Part shown: positions 40,736 to 57,858 of the stretch, piece after piece
How positions within the stretch are numbered: the first letter of the stretch is position 1
Layout: each line of letters begins with the position of its first letter
Origin: Paraburkholderia phenazinium
Lineage (GTDB): Bacteria > Pseudomonadota > Gammaproteobacteria > Burkholderiales > Burkholderiaceae
NCBI RefSeq assembly: GCF_900141745.1
Contig: NZ_FSRM01000001.1
Location: 558,001-622,000, forward strand
Length of the DNA stretch: 64,000 bases
Reading direction: 5' to 3'
Program-made: the position numbers and the translations under genes
Notes under the pieces: model-generated
The model's input: the letters and a program-made list of their open reading frames with translations, nothing else
Database searches by the model: none
Told to the model about the DNA's origin: nothing

Positions 40736-40859
40736 AGGGACGGTGATGGGCGGCGCCACGCGCCGTACCCTACGCGGTGCCGTACGCAGTGACGCACCGG
40801 CGCGCACGCGGCCTGACCTGCCCGCCGCCGCGCCGCGTGCCGGGCGGTTTTTCCAAAGC

Positions 40860-41531
40860 TCAGCCGCCCATCATCCGCGTTTCATGCGGAACGACCCACG
40901 AGCGGTCGAACTCACCTCTCGCGATAGATTGCAGGGCCGCAGCCTCCTTCTCCCCCTGCTTCTTCGCCCCAGCAATCACCGCCTCGACTTCGGCGACCGG
41001 GATCGCCAGCACACCGTCTTCATCGCCGACGATGATGTCGCCGGGATGCACGACCATGCCACCCACCGACACCGGCACATTGATCTCACCAGGCCCGTTC
41101 TTGTACGGACCGCGGTGTGTCACGCCACGCGCATACACGGGGAAATCGCCCTGCCGAAGCGCGCCGACGTCGCGAATGGCACCGTCGATCACCAGACCTT
41201 GAACCCCCAGGCTCTCGGCAAAGCTAGACATGATCTCGCCCATCAGCGCCTGCGAAAGGTCGCCGCCGCCGTCGATCACCAGCACATCGCCCGGCCGGCA
41301 AAAATCGAAAGCGCGATGAATCGCGAGGTTGTCGCCACCGCGCGTGCGGACCGTCACTGCGGTTCCAGCCATCGGCTTGGGCCGGTGATAGGGCTGCAGC
41401 CCGACTGTGCCGCTCGCGCGCGCCATGTTGTCGCTCAGCAGCGAAACGGCCAGGCCACGCAACGTCTCGAGAATCTGCGGGCTGGCTTGCGGCGCGGATT
41501 CGTTGTGGTGCCATCCAATGGGGTTCGTCAC
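40860..41531 (-). CDS. RraA-family 4-carboxy-4-hydroxy-2-oxoadipate / HMG aldolase
   Basis: 223 residues. The fold matches RraA/HMG-CHA aldolases: RAFDFCRPGDVLVIDGGGD, GLVIDGAIRDV (the conserved Arg-Asp) and GGMVVHPGDIIVGDEDGV. In protocatechuate 4,5-cleavage and gallate pathways this enzyme cleaves CHA to pyruvate and oxaloacetate. It follows a LigJ-type hydratase by 12 bp, which supports aldolase rather than RNase-regulator function. Confidence 0.9.
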   Translation of the reverse strand: MTNPIGWHHNESAPQASPQILETLRGLAVSLLSDNMARASGTVGLQPYHRPKPMAGTAVTVRTRGGDNLAIHRAFDFCRPGDVLVIDGGGDLSQALMGEIMSSFAESLGVQGLVIDGAIRDVGALRQGDFPVYARGVTHRGPYKNGPGEINVPVSVGGMVVHPGDIIVGDEDGVLAIPVAEVEAVIAGAKKQGEKEAAALQSIARGEFDRSWVVPHETRMMGG

Positions 41532-41543
41532 AGGAGTCTCCTT

Positions 41544-42566
41544 TCAGGAAAGCTGGCGTTCGAGTTGACTGGACAGGCGCCCATACACCGCGCGCGCGTT
41601 GTCCTCGAAGATGCGTTGCCGGTCCGCGGGCGTGAGCCACGGAATCGCGTCGATATAGCGCCGCGTGTCGTCGTAGTAGTGCCCCGTCTCGGGATCGATG
41701 CCCTGCACGGCTCCGATCGTCTCCGAGGCAAACAGGATGTTCCCGACCGGAATCACCTTGGCGAGAAGCTCGGCGCCTGGCTGGTGATAGACGCACGTGT
41801 CGAAGAACACGTTTTTCATCAGGTATTCGGTGAGAAGCGGCCGCTTCATGTCCTGAGCAAGGCCGCGATAGCGTCCCCAGTGATACGGAACCGCGCCGCC
41901 GCCGTGCGGGATGATGAAGCGCAGCGTCGGGAAATCGGCGAACAGATCGGCGCTCAGCAACTGCATGAAGACGGAGGTATCGCCATTGATGTAGTGCGCG
42001 CCCGTAGCGTGAAAATTCGGGTTGCACGATGACGACACGTGAATCATCGCCGGCACGTCGAGCTGAACCATCGCTTCATACAGCGGGTACCACGAGCGGT
42101 CGGTCATCGGTAAGCCGTTCCAGTGACCACCCGATGGATCGGGGTTGAGATTGCAGCCGATAAAGCCCAGTTCCTCCACACACCGACGCAACTCGGCGAT
42201 GCAATTCGCCGGCGCTGCACCGACCGCTTGCGGCAACTGGCAGACACCGACAAAGTTGCGCGGAAACAATCCGCACACGCGATGGATCAGGTCGTTGCAT
42301 TCCTGCGACCAGCGCGCATTCGCGTCTTCCGTGCCCAGATGGTGGCCCATCCCGGCTGCGCGCGGCGAGAAGATGGTGAGGTCCGTGCCACGTTCGCGCT
42401 GAACGCGCAGCTGTCCGCGCTCGATGCTCTCGCGAATCTGTTCATCCGTGATGACCGGACGGGGCGGCACCGACGTACCGTCCTTCAAGGCTGCGATCTG
42501 TTTGGCGCGCCATGCTTCGTGCTCGGGCGGCGAGGTGGTGTAATGGCCGTGGCAATCGATGATCAT
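41544..42566 (-). CDS. ligJ: 4-oxalomesaconate hydratase (LigJ-type amidohydrolase)
   Basis: 340 residues from the ATG at 42566 (MIIDCHGHYTTSPPEHEAW). Amidohydrolase-2 fold: metal-binding DCHGH at the N-terminus, MIHVSSSCNP, RFIIPHGGGAVPYH and LFASETIGAV. LigJ hydrates 4-oxalomesaconate to CHA, the substrate of the adjacent aldolase. The upstream MFS gene ends 7 bp before the start. No ring-cleavage dioxygenase is present in this window. Confidence 0.9.
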   Translation of the reverse strand: MIIDCHGHYTTSPPEHEAWRAKQIAALKDGTSVPPRPVITDEQIRESIERGQLRVQRERGTDLTIFSPRAAGMGHHLGTEDANARWSQECNDLIHRVCGLFPRNFVGVCQLPQAVGAAPANCIAELRRCVEELGFIGCNLNPDPSGGHWNGLPMTDRSWYPLYEAMVQLDVPAMIHVSSSCNPNFHATGAHYINGDTSVFMQLLSADLFADFPTLRFIIPHGGGAVPYHWGRYRGLAQDMKRPLLTEYLMKNVFFDTCVYHQPGAELLAKVIPVGNILFASETIGAVQGIDPETGHYYDDTRRYIDAIPWLTPADRQRIFEDNARAVYGRLSSQLERQLS

Positions 42567-42573
42567 TGCGGTT

Positions 42574-43932
42574 TTAAGTGTTGCGGCTGATGGGGAGATT
42601 TTCGGGGTGCGTGTCGCTGGGCGGCACCGAATCCAGATCGCTTTCACGCGGCGTCACGCGCATCACCAACGCGATGATCGTGGCGATCACGAGAAACGCG
42701 GCAATCGTCAGGAGTGCGAGATCGAATTTGCCCGTCGCGTTTCGCACGAGCCCAATGCTCCACGGACCGACCAGGCCGCCGACCTGCGCTACGGTGTTGA
42801 TCAGCGCGATCGTCGCGGCGCCCGCGGCGCCGGAGCGGAACGACGAGGCGAGACTCCAGAACAGCGGATTACCCGCGTAAATGAAGAGTCCGGTTACGCA
42901 AAGCAGTATGTAGGCAATCACCGGATTCGGCGCATAGGCACTGCCGGCGATGGCGAGCGCGCTCATTCCGTACACGAAGGCCAGATGCTTCTTCCGGTCG
43001 CCGGTGCGATCGGAGCTACGGCTAATGAGGAAAGTGCCCAGTACGCCAAGGAGCGGCGGGACGGCGGACAGAAAGCCGACTTCGATATTGCTCAGGTGTC
43101 CGAGGCTTTTGACGATCTGCGGCAACCACAGGAACAGGCCGTAAATTCCGACGAGCGCGCAGCCGAACAGGCATGCGAGACTCCAGACGCGGATATCCCC
43201 GGCCACACGCAGAAAGGAAAAATGCGTCTGTCCGCCGAGCGCTTCGCGCTCCGCTTCCAGCGTGGATTCGAGCCACTGTTTCTGTTCAGGTCTGAGCCAC
43301 GCCGCCTCGGCGGGGCGCTCGGTCATGATGCGCAGCGTCAGCAGACCGAGCAGCATGGCTGGCACGCCCTCGAGAATGAACATCCACTGCCAGCCGTTGA
43401 GCCCGAGAATGCCGTTGCCGTAGGTCATCAGCGTGGTGGAGATGGGACCGCCCAGCACGGCAGAGAACGAGCCGGCAATGATGTATCCGCCCACCGCCCG
43501 GGCCCGGTAGCGCACCGGAAACCACTTGGTCAGATACACCGCCACTCCGGGCAGAAAGCCCGCCTCCATGACGCCCAGCAGGAAGCGCAGGATGTAAAAG
43601 CTGGAGTCGTTGAAAACAAATGCGGTGGCGGCCGCTACGGCGCCCCAGGTCAGCAGAATGCGCGCTATCCAGCGACGGGCGCCGACGCGATGCAGCAGCA
43701 GGTTGCTCGGAACCTCGAGCAGCATGTAGCCGAAGAAAAAGATGCTTCCGGCGAAACCGAACACGGCCGGGCTAAAGCCCAACTGCTTGTTCATGTCGAG
43801 CGCGGCGAAGCCGATATTGATCCGGTCCAGGTAGTTGAAGAACATCATCGCAAACAATAGGGGCATCAGCCGCCTATAGACTTTGCGCATGGTCTCCGCT
43901 TCGATCGCATCGGTCATCATCGTCTCCATCAT
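42574..43932 (-). CDS. MFS transporter (anion:cation symporter type)
   Basis: 452 residues from the ATG at 43932; the frame opens at a TTG 13 codons earlier, and the cluster of Met codons leaves the start uncertain. Twelve membrane spans; signature MFFNYLDRINIGFAALDMN after TM1 and GVMEAGFLPGVAVYLTKWF are typical of the ACS family, which imports phthalate, tartrate, hexuronates and similar carboxylates. Within the LigJ/aldolase operon it probably imports an aromatic or carboxylic acid. Confidence 0.9.
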   Translation of the reverse strand: MMETMMTDAIEAETMRKVYRRLMPLLFAMMFFNYLDRINIGFAALDMNKQLGFSPAVFGFAGSIFFFGYMLLEVPSNLLLHRVGARRWIARILLTWGAVAAATAFVFNDSSFYILRFLLGVMEAGFLPGVAVYLTKWFPVRYRARAVGGYIIAGSFSAVLGGPISTTLMTYGNGILGLNGWQWMFILEGVPAMLLGLLTLRIMTERPAEAAWLRPEQKQWLESTLEAEREALGGQTHFSFLRVAGDIRVWSLACLFGCALVGIYGLFLWLPQIVKSLGHLSNIEVGFLSAVPPLLGVLGTFLISRSSDRTGDRKKHLAFVYGMSALAIAGSAYAPNPVIAYILLCVTGLFIYAGNPLFWSLASSFRSGAAGAATIALINTVAQVGGLVGPWSIGLVRNATGKFDLALLTIAAFLVIATIIALVMRVTPRESDLDSVPPSDTHPENLPISRNT

Positions 43933-44063
43933 GTTTCTGCGCGCCTGTTTATTCAGGCGTCGGTCGAACAACAGTACTACTTTGACGCGAGTCCAATCCC
44001 ATCATAAGGAACCGGGCCAACGGGCGTCCAAGACGTGTTCCTTATTCTTGTATAAGTCTTTTC

Positions 44064-44969
44064 TTATAGTGCGACGTTTTCCTTGCTGTCGCACTCGGGC
44101 AGGCAATCGAGGAAAGCGCGCAGATGCGGCGAGGTGTCGTCCGTGCGAAAGCGTGCGGTGAGCGTGGTGATCTGCGACGAGACCGGCCCGTCAAGGTGAC
44201 GATAGACCACGTCGGAGCGGCCATGCCGCGCGACGGATTCACCGATAAAGGTCACGCCGAGTCCTGCGGCAACGAGCGCGATGGCCGTCTGAATCTCGTA
44301 CGCCCGATAGCCAACCGGCGGCGTAATGCCGGCGTCGCGGTACAACGATTCGACGAACCGCGAGAACTGCGCGTGCGGGTACTTCGGATACAGGATCAGC
44401 GGGGTGTCGGCGAGATCGGCGATGCGCACGGTTTCTGATGCGGCCAGCGGATGCTCGGGTGCAAGCGCGACCACTACGCGCTCATGCAGTAGCGGCAACG
44501 TTGTACATCCGGGGAGCACGGTGGCCTGTCTGCCGATTCCGATGTGAATCCTCTGATCGCGCAGCGCGTCGCCTTGCTCCTCGGTCAGCATTTCGAAGAG
44601 CTTGAGCTCGACCTGGGGATAGGCCTGGTGAAACGCTTTCAGCGCAGGCGGAAGCACGCTGTACATCGTCGAACGCGTGAAGCCGATGCTGAGCCAGCCA
44701 CGCGACCCAAGGCCAATTTCGCGAGTGCCAAGCGCGACCTGCTCACAGGATGCGAGGATCTGCCGCGCCTCGGTGCATAGATAGCTGCCGGCTTCGGTCA
44801 GGCGTAGCGGCCGGCTGCCCCGGTCGACGAGCTGCGCGCCCAGTCGCTCCTCGAGGCTGCGAATCTGCTGGCTCAACGCGGGCTGTGCCACATGCAATCG
44901 CTCCGCCGCCCGGCTGAAATTCAACTCCTCCGCGAGGACGACAAAATATTGCAGGGCTCGGAGATTCAT
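44064..44969 (-). CDS. LysR-family regulator of the LigJ/aldolase operon
   Basis: 301 residues from the ATG at 44969 (MNLRALQYFVVLAEELNFSR). N-terminal winged helix-turn-helix (AAERLHVAQPALSQQIRSLE) and periplasmic-binding-like effector domain. It lies upstream of the MFS/ligJ/aldolase genes in the same orientation, not divergent. Control of that operon is inferred from position. The effector is unknown. Confidence 0.92.
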   Translation of the reverse strand: MNLRALQYFVVLAEELNFSRAAERLHVAQPALSQQIRSLEERLGAQLVDRGSRPLRLTEAGSYLCTEARQILASCEQVALGTREIGLGSRGWLSIGFTRSTMYSVLPPALKAFHQAYPQVELKLFEMLTEEQGDALRDQRIHIGIGRQATVLPGCTTLPLLHERVVVALAPEHPLAASETVRIADLADTPLILYPKYPHAQFSRFVESLYRDAGITPPVGYRAYEIQTAIALVAAGLGVTFIGESVARHGRSDVVYRHLDGPVSSQITTLTARFRTDDTSPHLRAFLDCLPECDSKENVAL

Positions 44970-45202
44970 GGCGTAGGTATTCCTGTCCGGTTGGTCCGGC
45001 CCACGAACGCGGGTGAATGGTGCACCGCGCAACGGGCGGATGATTCTGGCCCAGTTTGGCATAGCGGCTCTTGAACGGTTTGGGCCGCTATGCCCAGAGC
45101 GGAGTTCAAATCACCGCCCTCTTGCAAAATGCTACTCTGCGACGTCCTATACCTGCGGCCACGGCTGAACAGGGCCGAACCGCTTCAGCAACTTTGACTA
45201 CA

Positions 45203-46093
45203 GTGAAATTCGACACGACGACAGTCCGGCTGATCCTGGCCATCGCGGATGAAGGCAGCATTTCCCGGGCCGCCGACAAACTCAGCCTTGCGGTGGCTGC
45301 TGCGTCCCGGCGCGTGTCGGATCTCGAGGCGCAACTGGGCATCAAACTGTTCCAGCGCGTGCCGCATGGCGTTGAGATCACCGAGTCCGGTACCAAGCTG
45401 CTGGACTACATCCGGCAGATCGACAACCTCATCGACCGACTTGAAGGCGATGCAGGGGCACTCAACGAAGGGCTCGACGGACGCATTATCATCGGCGCGC
45501 CCAAGGCGGTCGTCATCCAGTTTCTTGCTCGTGAGATTGCTGCGATCCAGCGCAAATTCCCGCGCATCTCGCTGAAGGTTGTCGAAGAAAACAGCAAGAT
45601 CGTGCAACAGCTGCTGCGCGACAAGGTGATCGACGTGGGGATCTACGAGAACAAAAGCGGGTTCCTGGATCTGCCGAAGTTTCCGTACCGGGAGGACCGG
45701 CTGGTTTTGGTCTATAGCCGCGCGCATTTCCGGTTTCGTGACGCGCCAGTTAGCATCGACGAGTTTCTCGATTTGCCCGTTGTGAGCCTCGGCAAGGGGT
45801 CCGCTGTGTTGTCCGCCGTGCAGCGCGCGTATCGCAGCCGCGGGCGCGAGTTTCCCAACAATTTCACCGTCACCGGCTTCGACACTATGCTGGCGCTTGT
45901 GCGCAACGGGCTCGGTGTGGGATTGATGCCACCTGACGTATTGCGCAGTTTTCATCCTGAAGAGGCGCTGGCGTCGGTGGAACTTGTCGGCGACTGGCAT
46001 CAGCGCAACTACGTTCTGTCCTGTCTCGAAGGGCATGCGCAACAGCAAACCCTGCACAACGTCATGGACGAGCTTCTTCGCAAACCGGCGTAG
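45203..46093 (+). CDS. LysR-family regulator
   Basis: 296 residues from the GTG at 45203 (MKFDTTTVRLILAIADEGSI); several in-frame starts upstream exist (first ATG 45071) so the start is uncertain. The HTH is SRAADKLSLAVAAASRRVSDLE, and the effector domain ends near LLRKPA. It is divergent from the other LysR gene and upstream of the CoA-transferase operon on the same strand, which it probably controls. Confidence 0.9.
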   Translation: MKFDTTTVRLILAIADEGSISRAADKLSLAVAAASRRVSDLEAQLGIKLFQRVPHGVEITESGTKLLDYIRQIDNLIDRLEGDAGALNEGLDGRIIIGAPKAVVIQFLAREIAAIQRKFPRISLKVVEENSKIVQQLLRDKVIDVGIYENKSGFLDLPKFPYREDRLVLVYSRAHFRFRDAPVSIDEFLDLPVVSLGKGSAVLSAVQRAYRSRGREFPNNFTVTGFDTMLALVRNGLGVGLMPPDVLRSFHPEEALASVELVGDWHQRNYVLSCLEGHAQQQTLHNVMDELLRKPA

Positions 46094-46360
46094 TGCCACC
46101 TCTCCGGTTTCGCGAGGCGCGAAACCAGACATGATTCCCTCATCCTTGCGGCGGCTCCCCCGGTAGGCGACAGTGATCGCATAACGACTACCTGGAGACG
46201 AGATGCCATTGCGCGTCCTCATTGCGGCTATCGCCGCTGCCCAAACCTCTTTCTGATCCCTTATTGCAGCTGTGGCTGACGCTATGCGTGCCGCCGGGTT
46301 GCTGCTCTGCGCGGCTTTAACGCCGTACCTCCACTGAACTTTTTTCCGAGGAAACATGAG

Positions 46361-47527
46361 ATGACGCAATCGACGCATCTACCGCTGCAAGGCATCCGCG
46401 TGCTGGACGTCAGCCAGGTCATGGCGGGACCGTTTTCCTGCATGCTGCTCGCGGACATGGGCGCTGACGTGATCAAGGTGGAACCCCTCGAAGGCGACCA
46501 GACGCGCGGCGCGATGGGCTTCAAGATGAAGGGGCCAGACAGCATGGGCTTCCTGAACATGAACCGCAACAAGCGCTCGCTGACGCTGGATCTCAAGAGC
46601 GACGAAGGACGCGAGTTCTTCTACGAGCTCGCCAAGACCGCCGACGTGATCGTGGAAAACTACCGGCCAGGTGTCGTGCAGCGGCTGCGCATCGACTACG
46701 AGACGATCAGGGAGATCAATCCCAAGATCGTGTACGCCAGCATTTCAGGCTTCGGTCAGAGCGGACCGTGGGCATCGCGACCGGGTTTCGATCTGATGGC
46801 GCAGGCCATGTCGGGCGTGATGAGCGTGACCGGCTACAAGGGTGAAAAACCGGTTAAGGCGGGCGTGCCGGTGGCGGACATCGGCTGTGCGCTGTTTGCT
46901 GTGTACGGGGTGCTTTCGGCGTACATAGGCGCTCAGAAGACGGGCGTGGGACAGCATATCGACGCCTCACTGTTCGATTCGGTAATGGCGTTCTCAATCT
47001 GGGACATGTCGGAATACTGGGGCACCGGTGTGCCGCCGACCCCGCTCGGCACCAGCAACAAGATGAGCGCCCCCTATCAGGCCGTGAAGGCACGCGACGA
47101 CTACTTCGTGATGGGCGCGACCAACCAGAAACTGTGGAAGAAGCTGTGCGAGTTACTGGAGCGCCCTGATCTTGTCAGTCATCCTGACTATGCGAGCGTG
47201 TCGTTACGATTGAAGAATCGCGAGGCGTTGATCGAAGCGCTGGAGCAGGAATTCGGCAAGCGCGACAGCGCGGAGTGGGTCGACGTCATGCTTGCCGCCG
47301 GCATTCCGGCCGGCCCGATTCTGTCTTATCCAGAGGCGTTCGAGAGCGAGCACGCCGCGCATCGCCGCATGTGCATGGAGATCGATCATCCGAACGAAGG
47401 CAAGGTCAAGAACATCGGGTTTGCCGTCAAGATGCTCGGCACGCCACAGACGGTGCGTCGTCATCCGCCGCTGCTAGGCGAGCACAACGACGAGATCTAC
47501 GCCGAAATCAACGGGACCAAGCCATGA
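46361..47527 (+). CDS. CaiB/BaiF family CoA-transferase
   Basis: 388 residues, with GAGGA upstream. Family III CoA-transferase: GIRVLDVSQVMAGPFSCMLL, DMGADVIKVE with the likely catalytic Asp further on in the YGVLSAYIGAQKTG region, and GFGQSGPWASRPGFDL. It moves CoA between acyl donors and a carboxylic acid, activating it for beta-oxidation-like breakdown. Its stop overlaps the enoyl-CoA hydratase start (ATGA). Confidence 0.93.
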   Translation: MTQSTHLPLQGIRVLDVSQVMAGPFSCMLLADMGADVIKVEPLEGDQTRGAMGFKMKGPDSMGFLNMNRNKRSLTLDLKSDEGREFFYELAKTADVIVENYRPGVVQRLRIDYETIREINPKIVYASISGFGQSGPWASRPGFDLMAQAMSGVMSVTGYKGEKPVKAGVPVADIGCALFAVYGVLSAYIGAQKTGVGQHIDASLFDSVMAFSIWDMSEYWGTGVPPTPLGTSNKMSAPYQAVKARDDYFVMGATNQKLWKKLCELLERPDLVSHPDYASVSLRLKNREALIEALEQEFGKRDSAEWVDVMLAAGIPAGPILSYPEAFESEHAAHRRMCMEIDHPNEGKVKNIGFAVKMLGTPQTVRRHPPLLGEHNDEIYAEINGTKP

Positions 47528-48285
47528 ACGAACCCGTCAGATTGACCGTCCATGAGTCGGGGGCGGCTGAGATTGTGATTGACCGGCCTGAACGGCATAA
47601 CGCGATGACGATCGCGATGTACGAATCGCTGCTGGCGTTGGTCAGCGAGTGCGAAAGCGACGATGCCGTGCGCTGCATTCTGTTCCGTGGCGCGGGTGGC
47701 AAGTCGTTTATTTCGGGCACCGATATCTCGTACTTCAAGGACTTCCGCGATGGACGCGATGGCGTCGCTTATGAGGCGCTTGTCGAGCGGGTCATCGATG
47801 CGGTGGAGCGGATCCCGGTCCCTACGGTTGCTGTGATCGATGGGTGGGCCGTGGGCGGCGGCCTCGCGCTGGCGACGGCTTGCGACTTTCGCGTGTGCAG
47901 CGGTGCCTCGCGGTTTGGCGCGCCTATCGCCAAGACGCTTTCCAACACGCTGTCGTCGCGCAATATTGCGCGGTTGCACGCGGCTTTTGGCGTGCCCAGG
48001 GTCAAGAAGATGTTGATGCTCGCCGACTATCTCTCGGCTGAGGAAGCCTTGGCGTGCGGGTACGTCTATGACGTTTGCGGACAGGATGAACTGGGCAACG
48101 CTGCGCATGCGTTAGCGGAGCGGCTCATTGCGTTGTCGCCGGTTACGCAGAAAGCGGTAAAGGAGAGCCTGCGGCGCATTGTCGTCGAACAACGGCTCGA
48201 TGATGAAGACCTGATCGAAGAGGTTTACGGCAGCGCCCGCTTCAGGGACGCCGTGGTCGCTTTCACCTCGGGCTCAAAGAAATAA
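47524..48285 (+). CDS. Enoyl-CoA hydratase/isomerase family protein
   Basis: 253 residues from the ATG overlapping the upstream stop. Crotonase fold: RPERHNAM, GGKSFISGTDISYF (oxyanion region), IDGWAVGGGLALATACDFRV. It hydrates or isomerises an acyl-CoA, the expected step after the CoA-transferase. One of the two usual catalytic glutamates is not obvious in the SNTLSSRNIARL region, so the precise reaction is open. Confidence 0.9.
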   Translation: MNEPVRLTVHESGAAEIVIDRPERHNAMTIAMYESLLALVSECESDDAVRCILFRGAGGKSFISGTDISYFKDFRDGRDGVAYEALVERVIDAVERIPVPTVAVIDGWAVGGGLALATACDFRVCSGASRFGAPIAKTLSNTLSSRNIARLHAAFGVPRVKKMLMLADYLSAEEALACGYVYDVCGQDELGNAAHALAERLIALSPVTQKAVKESLRRIVVEQRLDDEDLIEEVYGSARFRDAVVAFTSGSKK

Positions 48286-48311
48286 CGACACGGAAACGTG
48301 AGGAGACCGAC

Positions 48312-49616
48312 ATGAAACGATTCCAGCTCAAGGCGACCACCACCGTCCTTGTGATGCTGTGCCTGATGTACTTCATCACCTACGTCGACCGCGTCAACAT
48401 AAGTACCGCTGCCGGGCAGTTCAAGTCTGAACTGGGGCTCAGCAACACGCAGTTGGGCTTCGTCTTTTCGGCGTTTGCGTATCCGTATGTGGTGTTTCAG
48501 TTTATCGGCGGGTGGGTTAGCGATCGGTTTGGGGCCAAGCGGACGTTGATCGCCTGCGCTTTGATCTGGGCTGTGGCGACAACGCTGACTGGATTGGCGG
48601 GTGGGTTCGGGACACTTGTTGCGGCGCGGTTGCTGTTGGGGCTCGGCGAAGGGGCTACGTTTCCGGCGTCTACGAGTGCGATGGCTTCGTGGGTGACGCG
48701 CGACAGACGCGGGTTGGCTCAAGGGATTACTCACTCGTCGGCGCGGTTAGGGAACGCGGTGGCGCCGATGCTCGTGCTCGCGTTGATGACCGCGTTTAAC
48801 TGGAGGTTTTCGTTTTATCTGCTCGGTGCGCTTAGCGCTGGGTGGTTGGTGCTTTGGTATGTGACTTATACCGAGAAGCCTGGGGATCATCCGCGGATTA
48901 CTGCGGAGGAAATTAGCAGCTTGCCGCCGCCGACGGTTCGGCCCGCGGAAGTACCAGGGACGTGGTTGCGGTTGTATCGGCGCTTGCTGCCGGTATCTGG
49001 GGTCTACTTTTGCTACAACTGGATTCTCTGGTTGATGCTCGACTGGATGCCGCTTTACTTCATGCATAGCTTCCATCTCAACATCAAGAAGGCGGTGCTG
49101 TTTACTTCCGGGGTGTTCGTTGCGGGGGTGTTTGGGGATCTGGTGGGTGGGTTGGTCAGCGACCGGTTGCTAAGGCGTACTGGAAATCTGAAGCTGGCGC
49201 GCAGTTATATGGTTTCGGTTTGTATGTCGTTGACGGGGTTGTCGTTGCTGCCCGTGCTGCTGATACACGATCCGATGTATTCGCTGGTTTTTCTCGCTGC
49301 GGCGATGTTCTTCAATGAGATGAATATCGGGCCTATGTGGGCTGTGCCGATGGATATCGCTTATGACCGGTCTGGGACAGCGAGCGGGATTATGAGTGGG
49401 ACGGGGTTCACGGCGGCGATTGTTAGTCCGGTTGTGGCGGGGTATCTGGTTGATCGGTTGGGGAGCTGGGATGTGACTTTTTTGCTTTCTATCGGGGTGA
49501 TGGTTTGTGGGGTGGGGATGACGTTTTTTATGCGGCCGGGGGTGGTGTTTGGGACGCAGCGCAGGAACGCGGGGCGAGTGGAGAGACGTGCTGCGCTGCC
49601 GCTTGTGGATGAGTAA
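48312..49616 (+). CDS. MFS transporter (ACS family)
   Basis: 434 residues, GAGGAGACC upstream. Twelve spans, with MYFITYVDRVNISTAAG after TM1 and GLGEGATFPASTSAMASW. Probably imports the acid degraded by the CoA-transferase and hydratase upstream. The second half of the gene shows a striking use of G- and T-ending codons (GGG, GTT, TTG), unlike the C-ending preference of most genes in the window. Confidence 0.92.
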   Translation: MKRFQLKATTTVLVMLCLMYFITYVDRVNISTAAGQFKSELGLSNTQLGFVFSAFAYPYVVFQFIGGWVSDRFGAKRTLIACALIWAVATTLTGLAGGFGTLVAARLLLGLGEGATFPASTSAMASWVTRDRRGLAQGITHSSARLGNAVAPMLVLALMTAFNWRFSFYLLGALSAGWLVLWYVTYTEKPGDHPRITAEEISSLPPPTVRPAEVPGTWLRLYRRLLPVSGVYFCYNWILWLMLDWMPLYFMHSFHLNIKKAVLFTSGVFVAGVFGDLVGGLVSDRLLRRTGNLKLARSYMVSVCMSLTGLSLLPVLLIHDPMYSLVFLAAAMFFNEMNIGPMWAVPMDIAYDRSGTASGIMSGTGFTAAIVSPVVAGYLVDRLGSWDVTFLLSIGVMVCGVGMTFFMRPGVVFGTQRRNAGRVERRAALPLVDE

Positions 49617-50068
49617 TGAGAGGGGGGCGATGTGAGTCGCCGCCTTGTTTGGCTGAACCCTGCATACGCTGAAAGGACTTAAAAAAACACTGTCGGGTTC
49701 TGAGCACTTGCGCCTGTCTCGCGGCTGTCTATCACGGATATCGCCCGCTCCTGCTATGCCTGAAAGGCATGTCCCCCTGCCCACAAGGTCTTTGTTGCGC
49801 CTTCTGCGGAAACCTATAGTCCTTGCACGGCCACCGGTTAAAGGTGGCGCTACAAAGCTCTTTGCCTGATTGCTGGAACCCTCGCAGACGAATGCCGTAC
49901 TGCCGTCGACGTTTAAAGCGTACGAAGGTGGCTTTCGTCGATCGCTGCGATGGTGCGGAGCCAGGAAGATACTCGTTCTAAAAGTGCTCCGGGCAAAGAT
50001 AACGGGCAATGAATCGTCAACCGAATCAGTGACGCGATGAATCGCGTACGGACTCCTTAGGAAATGAC
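49617..50068. other. 452-bp intergenic region without recognised gene
   Basis: No supported ORF on either strand; the reverse-strand frame across it is a shadow of the MFS gene. Short elements seen are a TGCCTGAAAGGCA palindrome near 49758 and a run of seven As at 49682. A ribosome site (CCTTAGGA) and presumably a promoter for the SDR gene lie at its right end. Confidence 0.45.
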
Positions 50069-50809
50069 ATGTCTAACTTAGCTCACAAAGTGGCCCTCGT
50101 TACCGGCGGTTCACGCGGTATTGGTGCGGCAATTGCGAAACGCCTCGCCGCGGATGGGGCGAGCGTGGCGCTCACATACGCGAAGGACGCGAACGCGGCT
50201 TCGGCCGTGGTCAAAGAGATCGAACTCAGCGGCGGGAAGGCTATTGCGATTCAGGCCGACGCTGCTGATGTTAACGCTGTCGAGGCTGCGGTTGAAAAGA
50301 CCTTTACGACCTTCGGCCGGCTTGATGTGCTGGTGAACAATGCCGGTACAGCCATTCCGAAAACGTTCGAAGACACGACGCTGGAGGAGATGGATAAAGT
50401 GATCGACATCAACATCCGCGGCGTATTCGCTACGACCAAGGCTGCGCTGAAGCGTTTGAGTGACGGTGGTCGCATCATCATGATCGGTTCGGCGGTGGGC
50501 GAGCGGGCTATTACGCCTGGGTTGGTGCCTTACGCGGCTACCAAAGCGGCTGTCAGGATGTTCACTCAGGCGCTTTCTAGAGAGGTTGGGGGCCGGGGTA
50601 TTACGGTCAACAACGTTCAACCGGGGCCGATTGATACGGACCTGAATCCCGCTTCGGGCGATTGGGCTGTGCCGCAGAAGGCTGCCACGGCGCTTGATCG
50701 ATATGGGCGCGCTGAGGAGATTGCTGCGATGGTGGCGTTCGTTGCTGGGCCGGAGGGGTCGTACGTTACCGGGACGAATCTTACGGTCGATGGGGGGATG
50801 AATGCTTGA
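50069..50809 (+). CDS. Short-chain dehydrogenase/reductase (FabG-like)
   Basis: 246 residues. Classical SDR: KVALVTGGSRGIGAAIAKRL, LDVLVNNAGTA, catalytic Ser and YAATKAAVRMF (YxxxK), and PGPIDTDLNP. NAD(P)-dependent oxidoreductase, possibly for a hydroxyacyl or alcohol substrate. It may belong functionally with the CoA-transferase genes but is separated by 450 bp and is probably transcribed separately. Confidence 0.92.
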   Translation: MSNLAHKVALVTGGSRGIGAAIAKRLAADGASVALTYAKDANAASAVVKEIELSGGKAIAIQADAADVNAVEAAVEKTFTTFGRLDVLVNNAGTAIPKTFEDTTLEEMDKVIDINIRGVFATTKAALKRLSDGGRIIMIGSAVGERAITPGLVPYAATKAAVRMFTQALSREVGGRGITVNNVQPGPIDTDLNPASGDWAVPQKAATALDRYGRAEEIAAMVAFVAGPEGSYVTGTNLTVDGGMNA

Positions 50810-51212
50810 GGTGGGGTAAGTGTTCAATGTCCGGGTTTGGGCAGCGTGATGGCCGTGTGGGCGGGATGGCGAGTCGATGGACCAACGGAGTCGGCTCCTC
50901 TCGGCGAGCGACCGCCGACAACACAAGCGGTTATCGAATGCAGCAGCCATTGCAGGCTGCAGTCAACTTATGTGCAAGGCATATTCAGCCCATTGCCATC
51001 ATTCGATTCGCCTGCGCACACCCGCCCTAAAAACTCTATGATTGTTTGCTCATGCAAGGTCGGCCGCGGCCTCTCGGGCAGAGGGGACGAGCGTGGCAGA
51101 ATGAATCAGGCGTAATTGCCCGTTATCGACAGGTGTGCGGCGCATTGGCACTCGCGACGGGTTATATCGTTGCAAACGGGTTACGGAGATTACGCAGCAC
51201 TGGGGAAAGGAC
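50810..51212. other. 403-bp intergenic region before the HEPN-like gene
   Basis: No supported gene. The open frames here start without ribosome sites and have no recognisable product. The upstream part is GC-rich; nearer the HEPN-like gene base composition falls, the first sign of the foreign segment. Confidence 0.4.
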
Positions 51213-51773
51213 GTGAAAGAGGATTCTGATCCATCGTTTTCCCAAGAACTTGCTGGCCTAGCCGAGTGGGATCGAGCTTTTTGGCTCTCGCGCGCGTTCC
51301 TCGAAGCGAGTCGATGCTTGTGCGAAAGCATGTCCGAAGGTGGTTTCAGTTCTCAGTATTCCTCGAGTCGAGTCATATTGCACCTAGCTCGCCAAGGCGT
51401 TGAGTTGTTCCTGAAAGGAGCGATTGCCGCTGTTTCTGGGCAAGGCTCAGCGCCGAAGACCCACGACTTAAGCAGACTCTTCCTCGACTATCGTCGCCTT
51501 TATCCCGAGTTAAGGTTTTCTTTCAAAGTCCCACCCCGCTTCAGCGTCAGCCTAAACTTCGACCTATTTCCGGACGATCAGGAGCGGTTCCATTCGACAT
51601 TGGATCAGCGCCATAGATATCCCTCGGATCGAAAGGGCAACACGTTTGCCACCAGGGAGGTGTTTGATCCGATAGAGACGTTGAAGGAACTCGAAGAACT
51701 TGATCGCGAGTTGAAAGTCTTGGAGTGGGCACGCATTCGACCGCATTTACGTGGCGAACCCGAGATCAAGTAG
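51213..51773 (+). CDS. HEPN-like domain protein
   Basis: 186 residues if the GTG at 51213 (GGGGAAAGGA upstream) is the start; the frame is open from an ATG at 51135. Helical, with SSRVILHLARQGVELFLKGAI and KTHDLSRLFLDYRRL, the layout of HEPN proteins (helix bundle with a Lys-Thr-His-Asp-Leu segment). HEPN domains include RNases of toxin and defence systems and also inactive scaffolds. There is no partner nucleotidyltransferase nearby. It lies just left of the island boundary. Confidence 0.6.
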   Translation: MKEDSDPSFSQELAGLAEWDRAFWLSRAFLEASRCLCESMSEGGFSSQYSSSRVILHLARQGVELFLKGAIAAVSGQGSAPKTHDLSRLFLDYRRLYPELRFSFKVPPRFSVSLNFDLFPDDQERFHSTLDQRHRYPSDRKGNTFATREVFDPIETLKELEELDRELKVLEWARIRPHLRGEPEIK

Positions 51774-51934
51774 GAATCGTGTTGCGCGGCCAGCGACTTT
51801 GGGTTAACAGGCGAGACGTCGCAGCCATGCGTATCGCAGGGCACAGTGCTGCCGCTGCGGATACGCGGACCGGCACTCTGGTCGTCTCAACACTGGCGTT
51901 CCCTGGACGAAAAAATCCCGCAACGCCTTCTCTG

Positions 51935-51946
51935 GCGGTGATTTTC
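51935..51946. other. Candidate hairpin area between HEPN-like gene and att remnant
   Basis: The stretch 51918-51949 reads AAAATC ... CGCC, a short loop, GGCG ... GATTTT, an imperfect stem-loop with AT arms that could terminate the HEPN-like transcript before the tRNA remnant. Confidence 0.3.
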
Positions 51947-51978
51947 AGGATTTGAGCGAATTTCAGCGGGAATCGAGA

Positions 51979-52023
51979 TGGTGCGCCCGGCTGGGATCGA
52001 ATCAGCAACCATTGCCTTCAGAG
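51979..52023 (-). repeat. Displaced 3' end of tRNA-Arg (att repeat of genomic island)
   Basis: On the minus strand these 45 nt match the 3' part of the tRNA-Arg gene at 57783-57827 in 41 positions, including 23 consecutive identical bases covering CCA, the acceptor 3' strand and part of the T-arm. The repeat is direct. The 5' half of the tRNA is absent (the anticodon stem cannot form), so it is a remnant and not a gene. This is the expected structure of the far end of an element integrated at a tRNA 3' end. Confidence 0.85.
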
Positions 52024-52280
52024 TTTTACCAGCGCACCACGATCCCCTATAAATCAATGTCTTGCGCAACTTGCAAACTGCAAAACCAAGGCTAAACAAG
52101 GTCAATCAAGGCCATCCAAGGCCGCCCCAACTGTATTTTCACTGTACAGACCGTTCGGCAATCAAGACCAGCAACCTGCCCGATCGCATCAAGGTAGCGC
52201 TTCACAACGTGTCTTTCGCGCACCCATTCCTGATATCCTTGCGCTATCAACGCACGTTTAACGCAGGCTGGGCCACTTCG

Positions 52281-53075
52281 ATGGGCATCATCTATAAGAA
52301 TCCGTCTCTCGTGGAAGTGATATGCGAGCTTCATTGGGAACTTACGCCCGTCGCGATTCCGCCTAACATGGGCGTGGACCCGTTCCTAGATGTGATCCGA
52401 GCCGACCTGACCCCACGCTTAAATGCGGCAGGATTCGTGAATTCGCAGGAATTGGCGCACCCGCAAGTGCCCCGGCAATTTCTGGCGTGGCAACCGATAG
52501 TGCGCTTCGCGCCAGCGCCGGATACATGGCCCAAAATCCAGCTCGGACCAGGCATCTTCACCGTTAACATGGCCGGCCCGAACTACACGGGTTGGCCGGA
52601 CTTTCAGCCAGCAGTCGATTCAGCCGTCGGAGCACTGATTGAATCGTTCCCCACGCCAGAGAAATTTCTGCGACTCAAATCGTTGCAGCTTAAATATCTC
52701 AATGCATTCACTAACAAGCATGACTACCAAACTTACGCACAATTTGCGTCTACATATTTGGGATTGAAATCCGTATTGCCTAGTGCTTTTATTGAACGAA
52801 TTGGTGTGACGGCGGCTGAAATTTCGACAAACTCGCAAACTAAGCTGCCTATCTCAACGCCAAGTGATTCTTATATAACAGTTCAAGTTTCAGAAGGATT
52901 GGTCAATCAAACGCCTGGATGCGTATTGCAGCTCGCAGTCGAGAAGACTTCCAAAACAGAGCCGAAGCAAATAATGCCTTGGTTCCGCGAAGCCAACATT
53001 GCTGCGCGCGAAGCATTTCAATCCCTTGCGACACCTCGCCTAATTGAGTTGATGCGCCCTGAGGAGAAGAGATGA
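52281..53075 (+). CDS. TIGR04255-like protein, first gene of island cassette
   Basis: 264 residues from the ATG at 52281 (MGIIYKNPSLVEVICELHW); the frame is open 73 codons further but those lack a ribosome site and look non-coding. The NPSLVEVICELHW start and the overall size resemble TIGR04255, a sporadically distributed family of unknown function. No membrane span or nuclease motif is seen. Lower GC and codon use differ from the core genes. The stop overlaps the next gene by 4 bp (ATGA). Confidence 0.72.
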   Translation: MGIIYKNPSLVEVICELHWELTPVAIPPNMGVDPFLDVIRADLTPRLNAAGFVNSQELAHPQVPRQFLAWQPIVRFAPAPDTWPKIQLGPGIFTVNMAGPNYTGWPDFQPAVDSAVGALIESFPTPEKFLRLKSLQLKYLNAFTNKHDYQTYAQFASTYLGLKSVLPSAFIERIGVTAAEISTNSQTKLPISTPSDSYITVQVSEGLVNQTPGCVLQLAVEKTSKTEPKQIMPWFREANIAAREAFQSLATPRLIELMRPEEKR

Positions 53076-53659
53076 CTGCGACCACATATAATTCCACGTT
53101 TCACCAGACCCGCGCCATCACGTGGCCGTTTTCGTCGTCGACGGATACGACATTAGAAGGATTTCCGGTCATTGAGATAGAGCGACAACCTTCCTCTGCT
53201 TACAGTATGCCGATGGGTACTGTGATAGGTGGTTCAATTTTTTCAATGAAAATCGATATTACAAGCTCCGCGACAGGTGCTGAAATAATCGTGGAAACTC
53301 GTCCTGCAGACAGAGCGCGCGAGAAACTACTCCTCGAACGACAGATCCTCACTTTCCTCAATCTTGACGGCCTTGAGGACGAGGAAGCGAAGAATCTGCT
53401 AACCCAAGCTGTCCCAGAGGCACTCGTGTTCATAGGGGAGCTTCCGCAAGAGATACCGCTACCGAAGGCTACTATCGCTTTCGACGGCATCGTCACGCTG
53501 GAATGGCAAGACGGCTTAAAGAGAGCTGCCGCAATGTTCGAAGGTGACGACGATTATGGATACGCATACTTCCGTAACGGAACATACGTTCCTGGAAAGT
53601 CCGTTGCGGTCGCAGGAAACGGGATTCCCGAAGACTTGACGAGTTATCTTACTGCCTAA
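53072..53659 (+). CDS. Hypothetical protein, second gene of island cassette
   Basis: 195 residues, overlapping its upstream neighbour. I do not recognise a family. Acidic overall, with no signal or membrane segment; a central helical charged segment (about 85-120, RAREKLLLERQILTFLNL) is followed by an Ile/Pro-rich beta region. Translational coupling suggests a complex with the TIGR04255-like product. Confidence 0.72.
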   Translation: MTATTYNSTFHQTRAITWPFSSSTDTTLEGFPVIEIERQPSSAYSMPMGTVIGGSIFSMKIDITSSATGAEIIVETRPADRAREKLLLERQILTFLNLDGLEDEEAKNLLTQAVPEALVFIGELPQEIPLPKATIAFDGIVTLEWQDGLKRAAAMFEGDDDYGYAYFRNGTYVPGKSVAVAGNGIPEDLTSYLTA

Positions 53660-53669
53660 TTTTCAAGCG

Positions 53670-54323
53670 ATGGCTGACACTAATACCGAGCATAAGCCGG
53701 ATGACTCAGAAATTTCGCCCGGGGAGGTTTTCGACGAAGAAGATATCCTCTTAGCAGCGGTGGAGCCAATGAATTGGCAGGATGGCGTATTCAACGGCCA
53801 GGCGTTTCAAAAGAAATATCTAAAAGCACGCCAACAATCGGTAGCGAGGCAATGTTATTCGTCGCCCGCGCGGCTGAAATTTTTTGTTTTTGACCAACTT
53901 CTTCTTAATAAGCCCGAGCGTAAAGTCAAGGGCACGCAACGCTTCAATAGTCGAGCGCTTAGAGATTTGAAATCGGATGACGGCACGAAACAATTTGTAG
54001 TCATCGATGCGCCCCTTGCGGTGAGAAACAAAATCGACTTCGCCCACGCTCACATCGGGTTTACTGATAAAGTCAACCGAGGCGGGAACAGTGCCCAAGC
54101 CGCGGCAATCCTAAATCTGCGTGACCTGCTCAAGCGGAGCGGTGGCGTTAAATGGGTATGGTTACAATTTCCGCCGCCACCGCTCATTTATCTGCGTCCG
54201 TCCGAGTTTCGACTGGCGCGACACCGGTTGCGCCTTCGGAGAGAAGGCATAGATAAGGAATTTCTGAAAGCAGAGGCAGAACGCCAAAAAGCGGCAGAGG
54301 ACTCCACAAAGGCGCGTACCTAA
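53670..54323 (+). CDS. Hypothetical protein, third gene of island cassette
   Basis: 217 residues starting 11 bp after the previous stop. No known domain. The N-terminus is acidic (about 1-30), the core has ARLKFFVFDQLLLN, KQFVVIDAPLAVRNKIDFAH and AHIGFTDKVNRGGNSAQAA, and the C-terminus is a Lys/Arg/Glu-rich helix (about 180-217). The Asp/Asn/His residues in the core could be catalytic but this is speculation. Confidence 0.7.
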   Translation: MADTNTEHKPDDSEISPGEVFDEEDILLAAVEPMNWQDGVFNGQAFQKKYLKARQQSVARQCYSSPARLKFFVFDQLLLNKPERKVKGTQRFNSRALRDLKSDDGTKQFVVIDAPLAVRNKIDFAHAHIGFTDKVNRGGNSAQAAAILNLRDLLKRSGGVKWVWLQFPPPPLIYLRPSEFRLARHRLRLRREGIDKEFLKAEAERQKAAEDSTKART

Positions 54324-54824
54324 GTATTTGCGTTGGCCGGCGTCGAAGTGCGTCTAAACGCATCACTCCTTCGGGCGACGAACCAAGTTGCTAATCGGCG
54401 CCGCAAGGCGCTTGTCGCCACGTGGCCCGATGCATTAAAACCACCCAGCCAAGCGATGCCCGCAGGCGCGGAGGGGACTGCAAAAAAGCAGAGCTATTTT
54501 TGAGCGATGGTGGCCGGACCCTTCGGACCAACGATACGGTCACGAGCCCTTGAGCGCTACGCCGATCCAGCAACACCGATCACCTTGGTCATCCGACCTC
54601 CAGCCAACTTGATGGAGCCAAAGGCCGCAGTGCCTCAAAAACGTCCCCTCCGCTCCCGACGAGGTGACGGGCCGAAATAGGTAGGCTACGGCGCTTCACA
54701 TTCCGCAGCAGCTGGCGCTTTTTTGGAGAGTTGCAATCCGCGAATGCCGCGACTATCGTGGCCTTGTCTCCTCTCCATATCGCCTGCTGATATGGAATTG
54801 CCCGTCCTTGAGGCGGGCGTTTTT
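54324..54824 (+). ncRNA. Candidate structured non-coding RNA region
   Basis: 501 bp with no convincing ORF. Nested stem GGCGAC/GTCGCC (54374-54379, 54414-54419) encloses GCGCC-GCAA-GGCGC (54398-54411), a GNRA-type hairpin. An 11-bp inverted repeat GCGGAGGGGAC/GTCCCCTCCGC (54468-54478, 54643-54653) brackets 164 nt. CCATATC/GATATGG (54775-54795) follows, and then a terminator at 54800-54826. This could also be the remains of a displaced gene. No family was recognised and no promoter was placed. Confidence 0.3.
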
Positions 54825-54826
54825 TT
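54800..54826 (+). terminator. Intrinsic terminator (plus strand)
   Basis: Stem GCCCGTC/GGCGGGC (one G-T wobble), 5-nt loop, then seven Ts. It overlaps the 3' end of the minus-strand response regulator. It would end transcription of the cassette or of any RNA from the preceding non-coding region. Confidence 0.85.
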
Positions 54827-55214
54827 ACAGGCTTTCGTCTGCACCGTCGGGATCCGTTAGAGGGCGCGTGCACAAGTCGCTAACGGTTGTAAGAAAGAGC
54901 GCCACGGCCACTGGCTTCTTTAAGCAGAGATCCCAGCCGGGCTGGAGAAAATCCGGTGGTGGCGTGGCTGACTGTCCGAGAATCGGGATATGTGCGAGAT
55001 CGGGTCGAGCCCGAATCGCGTGGCTTAGGGTCAGCCCGTCCATCAATGGCATTATCCAGTCGGTGACAATGAGGTCGGGCACGTCGTGTTTGAGGCATTC
55101 GAGCGCCTCGATGCCATTGCTCGCGCAAGTCACCCTGTATCCTTCGTTGACAAGGATCAGTGACCAGACGGTGAGAAGCTGCGGCTCATCATCCACGAGC
55201 AAGATAGAGTACAT
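54825..55214 (-). CDS. Single-domain response regulator (island copy 1)
   Basis: 129 residues from the ATG at 55214 (MYSILLVDDEPQLLTVWSL); the frame extends upstream but the receiver begins here. D8-D9 acidic pair, phospho-acceptor D52 in IVTDWIMP, conserved lysine in LCLKKPVAVAL. No output domain. It is similar to the regulator 220 bp upstream (LLTVWSLIL versus LLTIWSLLL), so the two arose by duplication. A partner histidine kinase is not in the island. Confidence 0.88.
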   Translation of the reverse strand: MYSILLVDDEPQLLTVWSLILVNEGYRVTCASNGIEALECLKHDVPDLIVTDWIMPLMDGLTLSHAIRARPDLAHIPILGQSATPPPDFLQPGWDLCLKKPVAVALFLTTVSDLCTRPLTDPDGADESL

Positions 55215-55433
55215 CTGTGGCCACCGATTGGTCAGTTTTCGTTTTTCGCTGCCGCCACGTTGCGCAAGAAACGGTCCCAAGGAGCGCTCGCCGCCACAGC
55301 GTTTGTTTGTCTTCTCGCGAGTACCTTTATGCGAGACGCGTGCAAACATAGGTGCTTACTTTGGGACGCTCGGCACGTGGTAGGGTCGCGAGCGATCAAT
55401 CGACCAATTCATGCCCTCGCCAGGGGCCCAGGC

Positions 55434-55784
55434 TCAAGGCAGCATTTTCTCGATGATTGGAAGCAGCATGTCGAGTGAGAGAGGCTTGCGGCAATAGGCG
55501 ATCACGGGATTGGGCTGTCGCGGTATGTCAACGGCTGCGCTGCAAAGGATTATCGGGATTGACCGCAGGTCCGGATCTGCGAAGAGGGCAGCGCATAGCT
55601 CTGGGCCGGACATGACTGGCATCATGCAGTCACTGAGAATGAGGTCCGGCCGGGCCTTGCGGATCAGCTCAAGCGCGACCGCACCGTCGGGCGCTGTCAT
55701 GACGGCATAGCCGACCTGTTCGAGCAGCAGGCTCCAGATAGTCAGAAGATCGAACTCATCATCCACGACCATGATCGTTTTCAT
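55434..55784 (-). CDS. Single-domain response regulator (island copy 2)
   Basis: 116 residues, MKTIMVVDDEFDLLTIWSLLLEQ start, phospho-acceptor D52 in ILSDCMMPVMSG, lysine in AYCRKPLSL. No output domain. It starts 6 bp after the KaiC-like gene stop, so it is cotranscribed with it. It is a paralogue of the downstream regulator. Confidence 0.9.
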   Translation of the reverse strand: MKTIMVVDDEFDLLTIWSLLLEQVGYAVMTAPDGAVALELIRKARPDLILSDCMMPVMSGPELCAALFADPDLRSIPIILCSAAVDIPRQPNPVIAYCRKPLSLDMLLPIIEKMLP

Positions 55785-55790
55785 GGCGCG

Positions 55791-57266
55791 TCAACTGTCG
55801 AGCCGGCCAACAATCCCTGCGGCGGCCCCGCGGCCACCGAGCAAACTCGCCGCACCCGGAAAAGCGTCGACAACATCGAGTCCTTTCTCGGTAATGACGA
55901 GCTCCCGAAGCGAAGAATCGTGCGCGCTTTCGCGCTGTTTGACCACGGAGATCATTCGATGCAGACCAGTGTCGGTTTCCGCATAGCGCAGCAAAATGAG
56001 ATTTTCAGTCATGGCCGAGAGACGCATCCCGCGCATAACGGAGGGATCGGAATTGAACGGCACTTCTTCTGTGAGAAGCGTTGTCACCCCTGCGGCGCGT
56101 AACTGATGAGTCAATGCGTTGAGGAACAGACCAAACCGGCCAGTGCGCATTGCTGAATCACGAAACCCGTCGATACCGTCAAGCACAAGGCGCGTCGCGC
56201 CGGTCTGCTTTACCGTAGCGAGAGCGGTAGCTGCCAGTTCGTCTATTGCCAGTTCAATGGCCGGTTGCCACTGGACGGTCAGCCGCCCGTCGTCGCACGC
56301 CGCCTGCAACGGAATTGAAACGGATTCAGCCTTGCCGATGAGCCGTTGCGGCGACTCGTAAAAGCCAAGATAGACGGACTTTTCGCCGCGTTGCGCACCG
56401 GCCGATAGAAACTGCAGCCCAAGCAGCGTCTTGCCGATTCCTGATGCGCCCATCAGCGTGGTCGTGGAGCCCTTTATAAACCCTCCGCCGAGCAACTCAT
56501 CAAGACGTGGAATACCCGATCCGAGGCGCGCCTTGAGATCGGCCGGTCCAGGCTGCTCCGCACATCGTGCTTCCAGCCGTGGAAACATGACATGGCCGCT
56601 GTCCGTTATACGAAAAAAATGCTTGCCGAGCATGTGATCGCGAGCACGCATCTTGTGGACTTCAATTTCGCGTGTGCGGCGCATGCCATCGCTGTAACGG
56701 TTGAGCTCAATCAGGCCGTCGACGAGCGTATGTTCGGGATGCGGCTCATTACCCGACAAAGGAGCCAGCAGCAACGTCGTACAGTTCATGGCAGCAACCA
56801 GCGCGTTCAACTCATGGATGAACTTGGACAGCGAGAGGTCCGTTTCACTGAACTCGCGTGCGCTGCGAAAGCCATCGACGATGAGCAGACCCGGGCGGTA
56901 CTGGTGGAGGCTCAAGGCAACCTGCTTGAGGAAGCCATCAAGTCCGCCCTGCATAAGCGCGTGATAGCCCGAGACGAAAAACATTTTCTCCGCGACCGCT
57001 TTCTCGTCAAAGAAGCTGAGTGCGCTCAAATGCCCGAGGAGTTTGTCGTGCGATTCAGCGATCAAGGTCATATACAGCACCTTCTCGCCCTGGAGGACAC
57101 GATGGAAGCCGATCTGGCTCGACAGAATTGTCTTGCCCGCGCCAGCCATGCCTTCTATCAGGTACAAAGCGCCGCCGACCAGACCTCCGCCGAGAATGGT
57201 ATCGAGGCCCGGTACACCCGTTTCGACGTTCGAATGGCGCGACGCTGGAGATGTGTGAGTTGTCAT
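55791..57266 (-). CDS. KaiC-like double RecA-domain ATPase
   Basis: 491 residues from the ATG at 57266 (MTTHTSPASRHSN); a TTG ten codons earlier is open. Two KaiC-type domains: the first has GVPGLDTILGGG, Walker A EGMAGAGKT and Walker B LLIVDGF; the second has GIPRLDELLGGG, Walker A GASGIGKT and Walker B RLVLDGIDGF. Related proteins act with histidine kinases and response regulators in signalling and stress adaptation outside cyanobacteria. There is no KaiB/KaiA here, so clock function is not implied. It is followed by two receiver proteins, which are likely partners. Confidence 0.92.
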   Translation of the reverse strand: MTTHTSPASRHSNVETGVPGLDTILGGGLVGGALYLIEGMAGAGKTILSSQIGFHRVLQGEKVLYMTLIAESHDKLLGHLSALSFFDEKAVAEKMFFVSGYHALMQGGLDGFLKQVALSLHQYRPGLLIVDGFRSAREFSETDLSLSKFIHELNALVAAMNCTTLLLAPLSGNEPHPEHTLVDGLIELNRYSDGMRRTREIEVHKMRARDHMLGKHFFRITDSGHVMFPRLEARCAEQPGPADLKARLGSGIPRLDELLGGGFIKGSTTTLMGASGIGKTLLGLQFLSAGAQRGEKSVYLGFYESPQRLIGKAESVSIPLQAACDDGRLTVQWQPAIELAIDELAATALATVKQTGATRLVLDGIDGFRDSAMRTGRFGLFLNALTHQLRAAGVTTLLTEEVPFNSDPSVMRGMRLSAMTENLILLRYAETDTGLHRMISVVKQRESAHDSSLRELVITEKGLDVVDAFPGAASLLGGRGAAAGIVGRLDS

Positions 57267-57296
57267 TTTTTGAATCGTCTGCGAAGGTTCAAACAA

Positions 57297-57782
57297 GGGG
57301 CCGCCGCGGAATCAGCAAATCCCCCAATAGAAAGCAAACCGTGTACCTGACTCGCCGCGCCGACAGGAAAGCGCACCCGACAAGGTGCAACGAAATTTTA
57401 CCTTCTCGGTATCGTTTGTGATGGTCGAAGCATGGAGAGATGGAGCCCGAGTCGTTGGCCCACTGGTGCGTTTTGCGCGCGCAGGTCGAGCATCACGACC
57501 GCTTTACATCAAAGCGTGACGGTTGCCTGGACCGACTCAGGGATGGGAAAGGTCGATCAGCTTCAAGGTCGCGGTAACGGTTCGATACGACGCTGGGATT
57601 ATCGATCGCTTCCGAGCAAGCGGGGACGGCTGGCAAACGCGGATGAATGACGGGCTGTGCGACTGGCTCAAGACGCACCGCGTATGACGCACACCCCACG
57701 CCATACGTCAGCGAGTGGGTGTAATTTAGGCGTGGTTCAGGAAAGCAGAAACAGGCAAATTCGCGAGAACCCCTGTCAAAGT
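57297..57782. promoter_or_regulatory. Upstream region of the KaiC-like gene, to the tRNA
   Basis: 486 bp with no supported gene; short frames lack ribosome sites. It must hold the promoter of the KaiC-like operon (minus) and the junction with the tRNA 3' end. No clear promoter elements were found by eye. Confidence 0.4.
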
Positions 57783-57858
57783 TGGTGCGCCCGGCTGGGA
57801 TCGAACCAGCAACCCCTGCCTTCGGAGGGCAGTACTCTATCCATTGAGCTACGGGCGC
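57783..57858 (-). tRNA. tRNA-Arg (anticodon CCG)
   Basis: The minus strand folds as a 76-nt cloverleaf with encoded CCA: acceptor GCGCCCG pairs with CGGGCGC, the anticodon stem CTGCC/GGCAG holds loop CTCCGAA (anticodon CCG, reading CGG), and the T-arm carries GGTTCGATCC. Its 3' end is the island insertion site. Confidence 0.97.

Follow-up and report, generated by a model that had tools for sequence, protein, structure and literature searches.

The 5.8-kb island at tRNA-Arg(CCG) in the window (the whole stretch of 64,000 nucleotides from Paraburkholderia phenazinium analyzed here) is, judging from its sequence, very probably the grounded remnant of an AP3-type P2-like temperate phage (Peduoviridae). 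The displaced attachment core, both attachment arms and a cos-proximal stretch are still present. An earlier note on this DNA had considered that the element may be decayed. This description fits: the ends and the cos-proximal match are phage-like, and neither an integrase nor any of the virion genes searched for is left.

Insertion at the 3' end of tRNA-Arg(CCG)

ARAGORN identified a single tRNA in the window, an intact tRNA-Arg(CCG) on the minus strand at 57783-57858. The stretch at 51979-52023 is a displaced 45-nt att core, a copy of the 3' end of this tRNA that is shared with phage attP. The repeat had been reported in the earlier note, and its figures were reproduced: 41 of the 45 positions are identical in the same orientation, with the first 23 exact. 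When the copy was used as a query against its own genome (8.3 Mb in 2 contigs) at E<=0.001, the only matches were the copy itself and tRNA-Arg(CCG). The 4 mismatches of the copy are present in none of the aligned phage or sister cores, and they look like drift after insertion.

To look for the empty site, the left flank with the copy (51885-52023) was used as a query against 144 genomes of the genus, including the genome under study. Among the matches listed, the flank runs straight into an intact tRNA in 9 of the 144 genomes (G107, G050, G076, G118, G101, G097, G128, G060, and G054). The segment at 51891-51978 is thus the core flank that originally adjoined the 3' end of the tRNA gene and has since been displaced. 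Such empty sites in relatives had been named in the earlier note as a check on the insertion at the tRNA 3' end, and they support it. In three genomes (G045, G110, and G010), also among the matches listed, the flank ends at a displaced copy, as it does in the window. The remaining genomes showed no match far into the flank among the matches listed. G118 and G050 have more than one tRNA match each, so a further copy elsewhere in those two genomes is possible.

The genes beside the tRNA were compared in 54 stretches fetched from around the tRNA of 53 relatives. The first cargo gene was found in one of them (G104) and the KaiC gene in none. The near-absence of these two genes beside the tRNA of relatives, together with the empty sites, supports the insertion.

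The GC content is 0.552 in the island and 0.609 in the window. The cargo had been described as low in GC; the value is 0.511 in the three-gene cassette and 0.575 in the KaiC cassette, the latter hardly under the left flank (0.585). The description thus applies mainly to the three-gene cassette.

The conserved gene at 39674-40735 has a homologue in G060 that ends ~300 bp from the tRNA. Between this gene and the tRNA flank, the window therefore has a further ~11 kb (40736-51890) that G060 lacks, possibly a second, older insertion. Just outside the island, an ORF at 51135-51773 shows a HEPN match under the Pfam cut-off (E 0.013). Relatives of this ORF stand in other locations in G002 and G047.

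Phage sequence at the ends and near cos

The left end of the island (51979-52147) matches attP and the adjoining arm in eight records of six phages, Momento, Milagro, Musica, AP3, Mana, and Menos, with 79.8-85.4% identity over 168-171 bp. In a ninth record, Paku, the match is limited to the core. AP3 and Mana belong to Aptresvirus, and Momento, Milagro, Musica, and Menos to Peduoviridae. Beyond the core, this end is a phage attachment arm with CAAGG repeats (52024-52147). Together with the core it is 80-85% identical to AP3-type phages, and it recurs at displaced copies of the tRNA end in sister islands. In AP3-type phages the matched stretch comes immediately after the integrase gene, and the four of them that were aligned share the 45-nt core. 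The tRNA primer printed in the AP3 paper is identical to the 5' end of the window's tRNA (PMC5247547).

Inside the island, 54424-54481 is a cos-proximal phage sequence, which is 84-89% identical over 44-58 nt to Musica, Menos, Momento, Milagro, and KL3; AP3 and Mana showed no match to this stretch. The Milagro match stops at the end of its linear record and the KL3 match is 235 bp from the portal gene. It is on these grounds that the stretch is read as the cos region. The sequence to the right of the match diverges.

At the right end, the 3' remnant of a brnA-type antitoxin gene (57562-57687, plus strand) matches BrnA antitoxin genes of two Bordetella phages. It is followed by the tRNA-side attachment arm (57700-57782), recognized by alignment with the right ends of sister islands, from which the integrase gene is missing. 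The brnA remnant is common to the window, G130, G017, G046, and G067. The remnant and the ~80-bp arm of the window are 92 and 87% identical, respectively, to those of G130. After the remnant, an integrase tail is seen in G017, in G046 and in the older element of G067. The right arm is nearer to G130 and G067 than to the AP3-type phages aligned; thus, two related elements may be joined here, with the two ends of the window's island derived from one each.

Tandem remains were observed in G067 (L141 5213-11007) and G046 (L070 4897-5305). In both, an end with brnA and an integrase tail precedes an att copy and then another element. This tRNA site is used repeatedly.

Probable loss of the integrase and virion genes

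The earlier note had seen no integrase in the island, and none was detected here, either among the 6 ORFs scanned with Pfam and NCBIfam or with AP3 and sister integrase queries. A search of the window with 30 AP3 phage proteins, among them the integrase, gave no match at E<=1e-5; in this search the window showed no integrase, primase, portal, terminase, or late gene of an AP3-type phage. Because no gene for a phage protein remains, the identification as a phage depends on the ends, which are non-coding, on the match near cos and on the sister islands. In one sister island, G106, the integrase has 81-82% identity to those of AP3-type phages.

An integrase remnant in the window was considered and rejected. 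The AP3 integrase gave no match, and sister integrases (tblastn, E below 0.01) matched the tRNA and its copy only, because the query ORF ran into its own tRNA.

Sister islands were compared in 20 fetched stretches, the window among them, in which both the tRNA and a match to the left arm are present. Fifteen were taken from 33 genomes of one search, and G132, G067, G083, G155, and G106 were added. The left-arm or core match is partial in G358, G407, G155, G250, G318, and G328. A full-length AP3-type integrase is present in six stretches (G233, G044, G250, G318, G328, and G106), an integrase of another type in two (G358 and G083), and a broken integrase or its remnant in nine (G104, G231, G284, G375, G067, G155, G407, G003, and G132). 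No integrase was found in three: G335, G353, and the window. G250, G318, and G328 hold ~23 kb, with late genes present. Portal and terminase pieces are kept in G104, G233, G067, G003, and G130, and a portal piece in G407. The same phage type is thus seen in graded decay among the sisters, and no special model of mobility is required to explain the lack of an integrase. The range from ~23 kb with late genes to bare ends represents a route to an integrase-free island at tRNA-Arg(CCG).

The conserved left end had suggested a family of integrase-free islands moving in trans. This possibility was rejected, as 17 of the 20 stretches contain integrase sequence, which is broken in 9 of the 17 and of another type in 2.

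Alternative origins

Cis-mobilizable elements have att sites without an integrase and need a helper integrase in the cell. It is improbable that the island is such an element, or a non-phage genomic island, with the integrase supplied in trans. Both att ends are kept, no integrase was found, and comparable integrase-free stretches exist in G335 and G353, all of which would suit this origin. However, the ends and the cos-proximal stretch are phage sequence, and broken integrases are in place in sister islands. Moreover, a search of the rest of the genome for an AP3-type integrase gave none, only a 60-residue match of 40% identity in another open frame. This result argues against trans mobilization by a resident helper and leaves the corresponding suggestion of the earlier note without support.

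It is very unlikely that the island is a working mini-satellite, excised and packaged by a P2-like helper via att and cos. The att core, the arms and the 58-nt cos-proximal match are present, as this explanation would have it. P4-like satellites, however, carry their own replication and control genes besides cos, and no such gene was recognized among the 6 island ORFs. The divergence to the right of the cos match also stands against a working satellite, as does the genome itself, in which neither an AP3-type integrase nor, in a search without a positive control, an AP3 portal was found.

The 4 mismatches of the copy could suggest a chance repeat or a decayed tandem tRNA with native genes in between, but this is contradicted by the empty sites and has hardly any probability left: the best match in 50 base shuffles of the window was 29/45 against the 41/45 observed, and the next best ungapped 45-mer in the window reaches 26/45. 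Only 46 positions of the full 76-nt tRNA are identical to the sequence at the copy. Thus, 51979-52023 is no second full tRNA, an arrangement that the earlier note had set against insertion.

The KaiC/response-regulator cassette

A KaiC-like ATPase gene (55791-57296, PF06745) and two response regulator genes (54825-55349 and 55434-55784, both PF00072), all on the minus strand, constitute a cassette at 54715-57427. The cassette shows 88% DNA identity to a locus of G106, which is on another contig than the tRNA of G106. KaiC matches at E<=1e-60 were observed in 67 of the 144 genomes of the genus, the genome under study included, some with only 35-41% identity. The genome under study has one KaiC match at this threshold, located within 54715-57427. 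The cassette was rejected as a native neighbor of the tRNA, since it is seen in none of the 54 stretches from relatives. It was probably gained after the loss of the integrase and virion genes.

The three-gene cassette

The other cassette (52281-54323) contains three genes on the plus strand. The first (52281-53075) encodes a TIGR04255 family protein of 264 aa (NCBIfam TIGR04255); its open frame extends from 52062, and its start was set by the length of homologues. The second (53072-53659) and the third (53670-54323) encode proteins of 195 aa and 217 aa, respectively, with no family assigned and no Pfam, NCBIfam, PADLOC, or PHROG match. Ten relatives of the 217-aa protein were found. None of the three proteins matched a known defense family in PADLOC at E<=0.1. 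The two structure models from the cassette are poor (pLDDT 69.7 and 46.5), and that of the 217-aa protein gave no fold match in PDB or BFVD at E<=0.001.

The cassette stands between the attP arm and the cos-proximal stretch, ending 100 bp before the cos-proximal match. The three genes are in identical order in G104 and, away from this tRNA site, in G046 and G151. At the att site of the same tRNA, the G104 cassette comes after the same arm and is itself followed by a weak cos-like match (70% over 50 nt, E 0.002); this arrangement speaks for a phage link of the cassette. The G046 cassette (L153 5570-7637) is located beside two-partner secretion genes, outside any recognizable phage, and no AP3 gene matched there. 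In G151, phage-like genes are near the cassette, the arm match is unclear (E 0.034), and there is no cos match. The setting in G046 and the situation in G151 argue against a strict phage link.

The 195-aa protein was found in 2 of the 398 family genomes drawn, the genome under study and G104. A phage search with the 195-aa and TIGR04255 proteins and a plasmid search with the 195-aa protein gave no match. One viral contig matched, with match values equal to those of G151. In the literature searched, TIGR04255 is not mentioned, and no paper joins Paraburkholderia, prophage, cos site and defense.

The cargo after attP in Milagro consists of a Vsr-type endonuclease, a cytosine methylase and an Eco29kI-type endonuclease; that in Mana differs from it. 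The likeliest predicted role of the cassette is defense against other phages, because its position beside cos is the slot where P2-like phages carry anti-phage systems. The three genes may even be a new phage-carried anti-phage system in the attP-cos slot of AP3-type phages that has outlived its phage, a tentative proposal to which we give slightly less than even weight. The attP-cos stretch of AP3-type phages is a definite place to look for undescribed defense cassettes.

Proposed history of the island

If the island is a phage remnant, recombination by the phage integrase would have taken place between the 45-bp attP core and the 3' end of tRNA-Arg(CCG). From then on the tRNA would have had a 3' end supplied by the phage, with the old 3' end and its flank pushed away. 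A deletion from cos through the portal, terminase, late and integrase genes would then have grounded the element, and the KaiC/response-regulator cassette would have come into the deletion gap. The surviving cargo would be the three-gene cassette, formerly between attP and cos.

Comparison with known systems

The island resembles AP3-type P2-like phages in the 45-bp att core, the left attachment arm and the presence of cargo after attP, and it shares the cos-proximal match with Musica, Menos, Momento, and Milagro. It differs from them in the lack of integrase, primase, portal, terminase, and late genes. AP3 is described as a phage that integrates at tRNA-Arg and has its cos close to the integrase (PMC5247547). 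The Burkholderia myophage phiBP82.2, likened here by its published description, uses the same tRNA and the same attB, the 45-bp 3' end of tRNA-Arg(CCG). It is an intact prophage in which the integrase gene comes first after the tRNA, whereas the island in the window is a remnant (PMC13026187).

In B. cenocepacia, tRNA-Arg is given as the most frequent neighbor of prophages (PMC6024312), and island hotspots in B. pseudomallei include tRNA-Arg (PMC2612704). The tRNA-mediated genomic islands of Burkholderia likewise have a 3' tRNA repeat downstream of the tRNA, with tRNA-Arg as a hotspot, but the island in the window is traced to a phage type (PMC2612704).

P2-like phages of E. coli are reported to carry anti-phage systems in the cos-proximal region. 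As in that hotspot, the cargo in the window is beside cos, between replication and portal genes in the phage order; unlike the systems there, the cassette matches no known defense family and has a candidate function only (PMC9122126). Finally, the examples of grounded or cryptic prophages analyzed in PMC6379469 are from E. coli, but they are comparable to the island in that excision is lost with the recombinase and the region is open to insertions.
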